Source of the DNA: Candidatus Aciduliprofundum sp.
GTDB taxonomy: Archaea > Thermoplasmatota > Thermoplasmata > Thermoplasmatales > Aciduliprofundaceae
Reading direction: 5' to 3'
Assembly: GCA_015520565.1 (NCBI GenBank)
Contig: WAPW01000103.1
Span: forward strand, 1-33,841
DNA length: 33,841 nucleotides
Positions 29,794 through 32,945 of the stretch are shown here, piece after piece. Within the stretch, counting starts at the first letter, position 1, and the number at the start of each line of letters is the position of its first letter. Position numbers and translations under genes: made by a program. The notes under the pieces are model-generated. The model had not been told where the DNA came from and searched no databases. It worked only from the letters and a program-made list of their open reading frames with translations.

Positions 29794-29900
29794 GCCGGGG
29801 TGGCTCAGCCTGGTGGAGCGTCGGACTCATAGGGTATATTAATCTCCACCTCTAATCCTGAGAAATCCGAAGGTCCCGGGTTCAAACCCCGGCCCCGGCA
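29794..29900 (+). tRNA. tRNA-Met (CAU), elongator type, with a ~33-nt intron at 37/38
   Basis: Acceptor GCCGGGG/CCCCGGC, D arm GCTC...GAGC, anticodon stem TCGGA/TCCGA, CAT at 29828-29830, T arm CCGGGTTCAAACCCCGG; intron 29832-29864. Confidence 0.93.
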
Positions 29901-30280: not shown

Positions 30281-31525
30281 TCATTCTTTAACAAAGAATG
30301 GAGGAGCCATTGCAAGCACTATAAATCCTATTATTATCAAAGCCGACCCAACTCCAAAAAGATCTGCAAAATAGCCCATTAAAAATGATAATGTGGCAGC
30401 AATAACAGTTTTTACTTGGGATTCTACACTCAATCCCGATGCCATTACTCTGCTCTTAATTCTATCTGATATGTACCCAACATTCATAGGCCTCCTTATG
30501 TTCTGAAATACATAAATTAATACAAAGAATATTATTGAAGCTATTAGCAAATTGAAATGATAAAATAATCCTGCAAATACTACAAGAAGAGCGCCAAATA
30601 TAAGAGTAGCGTTTATGGCCCTTCCGAGATTCCCAATTTTATTCACTATTTTGTAGGAATTACGCGATGAATATGAGGTTAGGAGGTATATAAAAAAGTA
30701 TATGATTCCTATAATTATTGCCGTTCTCTTCTCAGGGGCTAAAAATACAAATATTGGTATTCCGAGAGCAAAAACCTTCAAAACTGCCTGAAGATAATCT
30801 TTTGTTGCTTCATAGGATGCTGAGAATAGAGACGAGTTAAATATGGCTTTTAAAACTATTTTATCCTTAAACATACTCCGAAAATCCACAAATGTTCTTT
30901 TAAATTGCTCTCCAATCTTCCCCGATGTTTTTCTTATCTCACCATCAAGTATTTTTGGGTATGTGGCAAGATTTATGAAATTGAGCACATAGGGAATTAT
31001 GGTTATTATGAATATATCTCTATAATTGCCAGTGTAAAAAACTATAAAGCCTGCAAGAAGTGCATTAACAGCTGAGCCAAGCTGAGAGTATGAACGGGTA
31101 GCTCCATAGTACTCAACTTTCTTATCCGATATTCCATTTATTTTCAAATATTCCAATATCATAGCTTTATGTGTGCCTGTTCTGTAAGCATCACCTAAAG
31201 CATAGAGCACCATAGCTGCAGCTAAAGGAAAGAATGATTTAACTGAGAAGAATATTGAAAAAGAAACCATATAGGATGCCATGGACATGAGCATAGAGCG
31301 CCTCCTTCCAAAAGCATCAGCATAAACTCCCGTGGGTATTTCAAAGACATAGACAGATACAAGTTTTATGGCGTACAAGATTCCTATATCAGTATAACTC
31401 AAACCTGCAGAGTATTTGAGAAAGAGAAGAAGAAAGGGCTCAAATAATCTAAGATTCTTCAAAAAACCATAGGCAGCGAATTTATAAAACATTCTATCCT
31501 TTGGTATCACTGCATAATCATGCAA
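30281..31525 (-). CDS. Major facilitator superfamily transporter
   Basis: ~12 hydrophobic segments, MFS motif A-like VFEIPTGVYADAFGRRRSM. Confidence 0.9.
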   Translation of the reverse strand: MHDYAVIPKDRMFYKFAAYGFLKNLRLFEPFLLLFLKYSAGLSYTDIGILYAIKLVSVYVFEIPTGVYADAFGRRRSMLMSMASYMVSFSIFFSVKSFFPLAAAMVLYALGDAYRTGTHKAMILEYLKINGISDKKVEYYGATRSYSQLGSAVNALLAGFIVFYTGNYRDIFIITIIPYVLNFINLATYPKILDGEIRKTSGKIGEQFKRTFVDFRSMFKDKIVLKAIFNSSLFSASYEATKDYLQAVLKVFALGIPIFVFLAPEKRTAIIIGIIYFFIYLLTSYSSRNSYKIVNKIGNLGRAINATLIFGALLVVFAGLFYHFNLLIASIIFFVLIYVFQNIRRPMNVGYISDRIKSRVMASGLSVESQVKTVIAATLSFLMGYFADLFGVGSALIIIGFIVLAMAPPFFVKE

Positions 31526-31554: not shown

Positions 31555-31953
31555 TTACATCCAGAGGTAGTAATCTATTACTTTTTCCATATCTTTATGC
31601 TCATTCTTCTTCTTCATAAGATTTCTCAAACTCTTATTCTCTCCCAAATACCCAGATAGAATTATCGCAAGGCCCCTATTTTCTTTCATAAGTGTGTGAG
31701 ATTTATACCTTATTGATGCCCACTTGCCTTCCAAGGAGAACATCTCTTCTAGCAACTTATCAATATCCTCCCTAAGCTTTTCTATCTCCTCCCCACTTTT
31801 CTTTTTCTCCCTATATCCTTCAAGAGCCAACAATATAACTTTCTCTGGGGGTATATTATAGCGAGTTGATACTTCTTTTATTATATTTTCCGTATGTTTG
31901 TTTAGCTTAAATTTTTTCTTCTTTAACCTTCCCGCTTTCAACAGGACCTCCAT
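31555..31953 (-). CDS. Coiled-coil/helical protein of unknown function (second gene of fluoride-riboswitch operon)
   Basis: 132 aa; ATG at 31953 lies inside the 3' end of the upstream ORF (47-nt overlap); no TM segments. Confidence 0.7.
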   Translation of the reverse strand: MEVLLKAGRLKKKKFKLNKHTENIIKEVSTRYNIPPEKVILLALEGYREKKKSGEEIEKLREDIDKLLEEMFSLEGKWASIRYKSHTLMKENRGLAIILSGYLGENKSLRNLMKKKNEHKDMEKVIDYYLWM

Positions 31954-32254
31954 TTCCTCTCATCTCCCTCAAAAGTGCTTTATTTTCCTCTCCCAGCTCA
32001 TCAATCCAACGCTCCATTCTCTCTTGATCCTCCTCTGCCTTCTCACAAAACTTGGTAAGATCTTCAACTTCCTCTTTCATCCTCCTTATCTTCTCTTCCA
32101 GCTCTTTTTTCCTTTTTAACAGGGCCTCTTTATCGTTCATCTCAAAGTACCTATTCATAGCAGCTATTCTCTCATAGAGAAATCTATCAAAATCATCTTC
32201 CTTCATATTTCGTATCTTCTCAAACAATTCCTTGGGTATTTCTACCTCTAGCAT
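31907..32254 (-). CDS. Coiled-coil protein of unknown function (first gene downstream of fluoride riboswitch)
   Basis: MLEVEIPKELFEKIRNMKEDDFDRFLYERIAAMNRYFEMNDKEALLKRKKELEEKIRRMKEEVEDL...; AUG 5 nt after AAGGUGG SD (track start 32263 is GTG). Confidence 0.75.
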   Translation of the reverse strand: MLEVEIPKELFEKIRNMKEDDFDRFLYERIAAMNRYFEMNDKEALLKRKKELEEKIRRMKEEVEDLTKFCEKAEEDQERMERWIDELGEENKALLREMRGNGGPVESGKVKEEKI

Positions 32255-32270
32255 AGGGACCACCTTTTAA

Positions 32271-32318
32271 ACAAGGAGCCATCAGCCTTTCGGCATTAGG
32301 TGGGCCCCATCACCTTGT
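32271..32318 (-). promoter_or_regulatory. Fluoride riboswitch (crcB motif)
   Basis: Minus strand ACAAGGUGAUGGGGCCCACCUAAUGCCGAAAGGCUGAUGGCUCCUUGU: P1 GGGGCC/GGCUCC, P2 GCC-GAAA-GGC, pseudoknot AGGUG/CACCU, conserved GAUG and CUGAUGGC, closely paralleling the Thermotoga petrophila fluoride aptamer as I recall it. Confidence 0.92.
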
Positions 32319-32333
32319 AAATGCGAAGTAAAA

Positions 32334-32342
32334 ATAATATAA
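32334..32342 (-). promoter_or_regulatory. Putative archaeal TATA box for the riboswitch operon
   Basis: Minus-strand TTATATTAT, ~25 nt upstream of the 5' end of the aptamer, placing the TSS near the start of the riboswitch. Confidence 0.5.
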
Positions 32343-32417
32343 GTAATTATCGGATTTCTCTATCAAAATTTATCGTATTAAAGTGAAATATAAAATAGTA
32401 TAATTCAATACAACTCT

Positions 32418-32945
32418 ATGAAAGCAGGAGAGAACCCTCCAGAGGATGTGTATGTATTCATAGAGGTACCAAAGGGAAGCAATATAAAGTGCGAGTACGA
32501 TTTTGAGATGAATGTTATCAAGGTGGATAGAGTTTTACACACAGCATCTTTCTATCCTTTCAACTACGGGTTCATTCCGAATACAATGGAGGAGGACAAT
32601 GACCCAATTGATTGCTTGGTAATATCCTACGATGCTTTTCCCCATGGAGTATTGGTAAGAGCTGTGCCCGTGGGCATGCTAGTCACAGAGGATGAGCACG
32701 GAGTGGATAGAAAGATAATAGCAGTACCACATCCCTCCGTAGACCCTAGAAACGAAGAAATAAAGGATATTGATGATGTGCCTCAGAGCATTCTTGAGCA
32801 GATTCAGCATTTCTTTAAGCATTATAAAGAATTGGAGAAGAACAAGTGGGTAAATATAGTTGGTTTTGAAAATGCAGAAAAGGCCAGAGAAGCAATAAGA
32901 AAGGCCATAGAGAGAAAGAAAAAGGGTAAATATGGCAAAGATTAA
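32418..32945 (+). CDS. ppa: Inorganic pyrophosphatase (family I)
   Basis: FIEVPKGSNIKCEYDFEMNVIKVDRVLHTASFYPFNYGFIPNTMEEDNDPIDCLVIS. Confidence 0.96.
   Translation: MKAGENPPEDVYVFIEVPKGSNIKCEYDFEMNVIKVDRVLHTASFYPFNYGFIPNTMEEDNDPIDCLVISYDAFPHGVLVRAVPVGMLVTEDEHGVDRKIIAVPHPSVDPRNEEIKDIDDVPQSILEQIQHFFKHYKELEKNKWVNIVGFENAEKAREAIRKAIERKKKGKYGKD

Follow-up and report, generated by a model that had tools for sequence, protein, structure and literature searches.

A fluoride riboswitch upstream of a coiled-coil gene pair in Aciduliprofundum and its probable action at the translation start

The aptamer and its relation to known fluoride riboswitches

Known fluoride resistance depends mostly on exporters of the CrcB/Fluc and CLC families. 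The crcB motif, or fluoride riboswitch, corresponds to the Rfam family RF01734 (Weinberg 2010, PMC2864571), and the structure of the Thermotoga petrophila aptamer is available (PDB 4ENC). Its recorded targets include formate hydrogen lyase genes (PMC2864571, PMC11139923). In the papers that cite the work (Speed et al. 2018, via PMC8241225 and PMC11077080), the fluoride-responsive riboswitch of Thermococcus kodakarensis is presumably translational, and by the account in PMC8241225 only one natural archaeal case had experimental backing as of 2021. The riboswitch described here lies on the minus strand of a stretch of 33,841 nucleotides (the window) from a deep-sea-vent type of archaeon of the Aciduliprofundum/DHVE2 group. 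It shares with the T. kodakarensis switch, as presented in those papers, the archaeal host, the fluoride class and a translational reading, but the latter is tied there to fluoride export genes, whereas the switch in the window is tied to a pair of coiled-coil genes. The formate-hydrogen-lyase riboswitches are resembled by two stronger copies in the same genome, which are linked to a hydrogenase-like operon, while the window copy has other targets.

A first-pass annotation, made from the letters alone, had proposed a crcB-type riboswitch on this strand. The covariance model, orthology and compensatory changes all bear this out, and the sequence quoted for 32318-32271 is exact. The search with RF01734, which had been suggested as a check, gave a significant full-length match (32.6 bits, E 4.5e-7 in a permissive 800-base scan; E 2.0e-7 genome-wide), though below the Rfam gathering cut-off of 34 bits. 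Being 1.4 bits under this value, the aptamer is missed by routine Rfam scans: at the gathering threshold, a tRNA was the sole match in the whole window and the riboswitch went unreported. The genome has three RF01734 matches; besides the window copy there are two at 47.7 and 44.4 bits, and the best candidate after these three is at 14.9. Furthermore, the orthologous leader in G001, a complete genome from this genus, scores 46.1 bits, the highest among the family orthologs. Given these stronger copies and this ortholog, the low score most likely reflects the short P2 (three pairs only) and linker of the window copy rather than a doubtful identity. The orthologous leader is kept at 11 loci of the Aciduliprofundum/DHVE2 family, and 14 of the 18 genomes of this family have an RF01734 match. 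The window aptamer is an ordinary member of the known riboswitch class, for which fluoride binding is predicted from sequence. In a wider survey of Thermoplasmata, 157 of 400 genomes had a match (E <= 0.001). In 49 of these 157 no match exceeded the gathering score; hence, many archaeal fluoride riboswitches seem to go unreported at the Rfam cut-off.

All three helices of the first-pass annotation are present, but its names for P1 and the pseudoknot were swapped relative to Rfam (Table 1). The conserved GAUG and CUGAUG segments that it pointed out are also found. The pocket and linchpin residues A6, U7, G8, A40, U41, G42 and U48, which we take to be correctly placed in T. petrophila numbering, are all in the window aptamer. 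The AUG, GAU and linchpin A/U columns are invariant in the alignment and present in the window. The linchpin of the fluoride aptamer is A40-U48 (PMC8752731). The likeness to RF01734 thus covers P1, P2, the pseudoknot, the conserved segments, the linchpin and the position in a 5' leader. The differences are the short P2, the score under the cut-off, the undescribed gene pair as target, and the base after the conserved CUCCU, which is U where the consensus of the covariance model has A; this U is common to the family members.

Compensatory changes add to this picture. In an alignment of 31 aptamers from several Thermoplasmata families, all 310 pair cells of P1 and the pseudoknot are standard pairs, and 7 of the 10 pairs show compensatory changes. 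Changes on both sides were observed in 53 cells, against 14 in shuffles, and none of 500 shuffles was as high, a result that should not be read as a probability since the aligned aptamers are related. Sliding the register preserves this relatedness, and in that control pairing drops to 35-60%.

Table 1. Features of the riboswitch locus, in window coordinates
Feature	Position	Strand	Remarks
Fluoride riboswitch aptamer	32266..32323	-	Full-length RF01734 match
P1 5' strand AGGUG	32311..32315	-	Partner 32298-32302; P1 100% paired in 31 sequences
P1 3' strand CACCU	32298..32302	-	In the alternative fold, pairs with the Shine-Dalgarno
Pseudoknot 5' strand GGGGCC	32303..32308	-	Compensatory changes at 5 of 6 pseudoknot pairs
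Pseudoknot 3' strand GGCUCC	32275..32280	-	Alignment of 31 aptamers
P2 hairpin GCC-GAAA-GGC	32285..32294	-	Sequence and covariance model
Expression platform AGGUGG-U-CCCUAU	32253..32265	-	Shine-Dalgarno, spacer and start-codon AU; complementary to 32310-32298
TATA-like box CTTATATT	32336..32343	-	Sequence; AT-rich box at similar spacing in relatives
P1p, 115-aa helical/coiled-coil protein	31907..32254	-	ATG at 32254; putative direct target of the switch
P2p, 132-aa protein	31555..31953	-	Predicted beta-hairpin and two helices, then one long coiled-coil helix
MFS-family transporter	30281..31492	-	PF07690, 70.3 bits

The TATA-like box placed upstream by the first-pass annotation is indeed there, as CTTATATT, and ends 21 nt before the GG of P1. 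AT-rich boxes occur at comparable sites in relatives, where the automatic scoring chose unclear ones in several cases. This box is presumably the promoter. A scan for bacterial promoters returned a single promoter-like site, the number expected by chance. The aptamer is followed by a ribosome-binding site and then by the ATG at 32254, which places it in a 5' leader; the GTG start listed for the first gene at 32263 falls inside the Shine-Dalgarno. About 100 bases away, and divergent from the riboswitch operon, there is a gene for a family I inorganic pyrophosphatase (32418-32945, plus strand), an enzyme type sensitive to fluoride. A plus-strand riboswitch for this gene was considered and discarded: the permissive RF01734 scan gave no match on that strand.

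Predicted pairing of the aptamer core with the translation start

How could such an aptamer control its genes? The stretch between the aptamer and the ATG, GGTGGTCCC, is invariant in 11 leaders (group A), whose encoded proteins are down to 28% identical. In this group the core AUGGGG-C-CCACCU can pair with AGGUGG-U-CCCUAU, which comprises the Shine-Dalgarno and the first two bases (AU) of the start codon. Group B leaders have an equivalent pairing in other letters, AUGGCGUC-C-ACC with GGUGACGCCAU, and other Thermoplasmata have further versions, such as those at loci L129 (GGCUCACC with GGUGAGCU) and L047 (GUCCGCCAC with GUGGCGGAC). Across 71 leaders, matching each core with its own start gave -719.6, compared with a permuted mean of -575 (SD 20), and none of 5,000 permutations was as good. 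Keeping one leader per genus and core gave a z of -5.4 (0 of 20,000 as good), and keeping one per distinct pseudoknot hexamer left 2 permutations of 20,000 as good. Within the family, crosses of A cores with B starts were weaker, with a mean of about -12.5 instead of about -17.5 kcal/mol.

In most of the 23 family leaders, which are few and related, the fold predicted to be lowest in energy contains the competing helix, hereafter the off helix. In these leaders, the Shine-Dalgarno was paired to 0.96 when folding was free and to 0.71 when P1 was imposed at 37 C; the corresponding values at 70 C were 0.91 and 0.51. Even with P1 imposed, it thus stays about one-half to two-thirds paired through other local folds, in an energy model that includes neither the pseudoknot nor the fluoride ion. 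In the window leader, the off helix has an energy of -16.6 kcal/mol, and the pseudoknot (-9.5) and P1/P2 (-10.8) stand on the other side; in this model the competing folds appear close in energy, as a switch requires. Folds and permutation tests together predict that the aptamer and the ribosome-binding-site pairings are mutually exclusive.

The covariation of core and start argues for a switch at translation that is off when fluoride is absent and on when it is present. We consider it likely that a fluoride riboswitch stands 5' of an operon encoding the coiled-coil pair (joined in this genus by an MFS transporter), and that it acts most likely on translation by sequestering the start. Without fluoride, the core AUGGGG-CCACCU would pair with AGGUGG-CCCUAU and hide the start from the ribosome-binding site through the spacer to the first two bases of the codon. 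In the presence of fluoride and Mg2+, the core would be held in the aptamer by P1 and the pseudoknot, the start would be freed and the operon expressed. The direction, off without fluoride, we infer from the fact that the ligand stabilises the aptamer. Translation of P2p could be coupled to that of P1p by the 47-nt overlap of their genes.

Such a covarying start-site pairing provides a concrete, mutable model of how an archaeal fluoride riboswitch may act. Many leaders outside the Aciduliprofundum/DHVE2 family and groups A and B have no complementarity between core and start. Hence, other platforms must exist, and the start-site platform is not universal. Beyond what is known of the class, these sequences point to a start-site-sequestering archaeal platform, through its covariation, and to a conserved and apparently undescribed gene pair behind fluoride riboswitches, in a lineage where known exporters are for the most part not seen.

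The gene pair and the known fluoride exporters

The MFS gene starts some 30-60 nt past P2p (an upstream TTG at 31525 is possible) and is the probable third gene of the operon; the order of pair and MFS gene is the same in G001. Searches of P1p and P2p against Pfam and NCBIfam gave no family above cut-off, and a sequence search of the PDB returned only generic coiled coils. AlphaFold placed a long helix in both proteins (pLDDT 81-83, with pTM only 0.38-0.42), and Foldseek found no significant fold match to these models. Several ribbon-helix-helix proteins were among the weak Foldseek matches to P2p, all with E above 1; the N-terminal domain of P2p, considered as a possible ribbon-helix-helix regulator, had no Pfam match. 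The pair appears to be undescribed.

The association of the pair with the riboswitch recurs. Each of the ten best-scoring P2p copies in the family is directly behind a riboswitch, whereas more distant paralogs are not, and a pair is found behind the aptamer in three Thermoplasmata families (f1, f3 and f4). In f3, it follows an RF01734 match in G262, where an MFS gene comes next, and in G111. In f4, the aptamer is followed by two very short coiled-coil genes. The second protein scored against the P2p profile above all 2,000 shuffles in the five cases tested, narrowly in two of them; the homology of the first to P1p was mostly no better than that of shuffled sequences. For P1p, the link across families is drawn mainly from position, together with the length pattern.

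CLC (PF00654) was not found in any of the 18 family genomes, nor CrcB (PF02537) in the host genome, which is rated 99.6% complete; absence from draft genomes is no proof. CrcB does occur in G005 and G008, which are incomplete and have no RF01734 match. The host thus has three fluoride riboswitches and no detected CrcB or CLC, and one of the three would control proteins of no described family. A fluoride switch on the pair, in a genome where known exporters were not seen, makes the two proteins good candidates for a component of the archaeal fluoride response that has not been described. The switch itself points to the stress, so that a part in fluoride tolerance is open to direct testing; whether the pair has such a role, be it direct or regulatory, seems to us evenly balanced. 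More tentatively, and with slightly less than even confidence, we suggest that the pair could be a new and widespread fluoride-response module of Thermoplasmata, replacing or supplementing exporters under start-sequestering switches in at least three families, possibly with the adjoining MFS transporter.

Alternative readings and other riboswitch targets

The riboswitch could instead act by transcription termination, with fluoride blocking a terminator close to the aptamer's U-rich 3' end. Many crcB RNAs overlap predicted terminators (PMC2864571), and relatives carry CUCCUUUU after the pseudoknot, but the window has CUCCUUGUUU at this place. A scan limited to bacterial-type sites, as distinct from archaeal T-tract terminators, returned no terminator-like site. 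Termination is in our view unlikely, and the covarying complementarity to the ribosome-binding site also speaks against it. The modest score raises another question: could the window copy be a decayed descendant that no longer functions in its host? It scores 32.6 bits, under the cut-off, compared with the 46.1 of its G001 ortholog. Yet its pocket, P1, pseudoknot positions and off helix are all intact, and it differs from its orthologs mainly in the short P2 and the linker, both variable, so that decay seems very unlikely.

A third reading, the least probable of these, keeps the fold and changes the ligand, for example to another small anion, in the Aciduliprofundum/DHVE2 family. The unusual targets (the coiled-coil pair and the hydrogenase), the known exporters not found in the host genome and the one otherwise conserved base that differs would be in line with such a change. 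However, the pocket residues are unchanged, and other Thermoplasmata have the same aptamer before CrcB and Na+/H+ exchanger genes. We retain a fluoride switch acting at the translation start as the preferred reading.

The two groups of leaders in the family have different targets: group A leaders precede the P1p/P2p pair, and those of group B a gene in a hydrogenase-like operon that encodes a membrane subunit of the NuoH/HyfC type. The two stronger copies of the host genome also precede such a NuoH/HyfC-type gene. They lie on contigs C71 (10104-10165) and C64 (23560-23620) of this genome (G000), where different riboswitches stand before nearly identical operon starts (L183, L184); other genomes of the genus have one such locus. 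The two loci could result from a duplication or from a mixture of strains (3.95% contamination). Elsewhere, Pfam identified the targets at single loci as CrcB (L047) and MutS domain V (L118, L162), and a Na+/H+ exchanger gene follows the aptamer in L153.

Other arrangements were seen in passing. At L048 (G326), the riboswitch is five bases upstream of a gene whose 498-aa product has a GTPase domain of the dynamin family (assigned by Pfam for L048 only), and similar 498-aa proteins follow the aptamer in L056, L115, L142, L159, L160 and L161. We found no description of a dynamin-family GTPase as a fluoride riboswitch target. In several DHVE2 genomes, a transporter gene lies upstream of the riboswitch-linked pair; it is of CitMHS type in L083 (222-1295; Pfam, this locus only), with genes of similar appearance in L087 and L089. 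Sometimes another copy of the pair, one that has no riboswitch, stands between this gene and the riboswitch-linked one. In G005, which has CrcB and no RF01734 match, the pair (L088, 248-2077) has no riboswitch in front of it and instead overlaps the end of a gene whose product looks like DnaJ. Finally, the tRNA gene of the window (29794-29900, plus strand; Rfam, 56.4 bits), unreported by ARAGORN in bacterial mode, carries inserted bases behind the CAU of its anticodon region, which are probably an intron.
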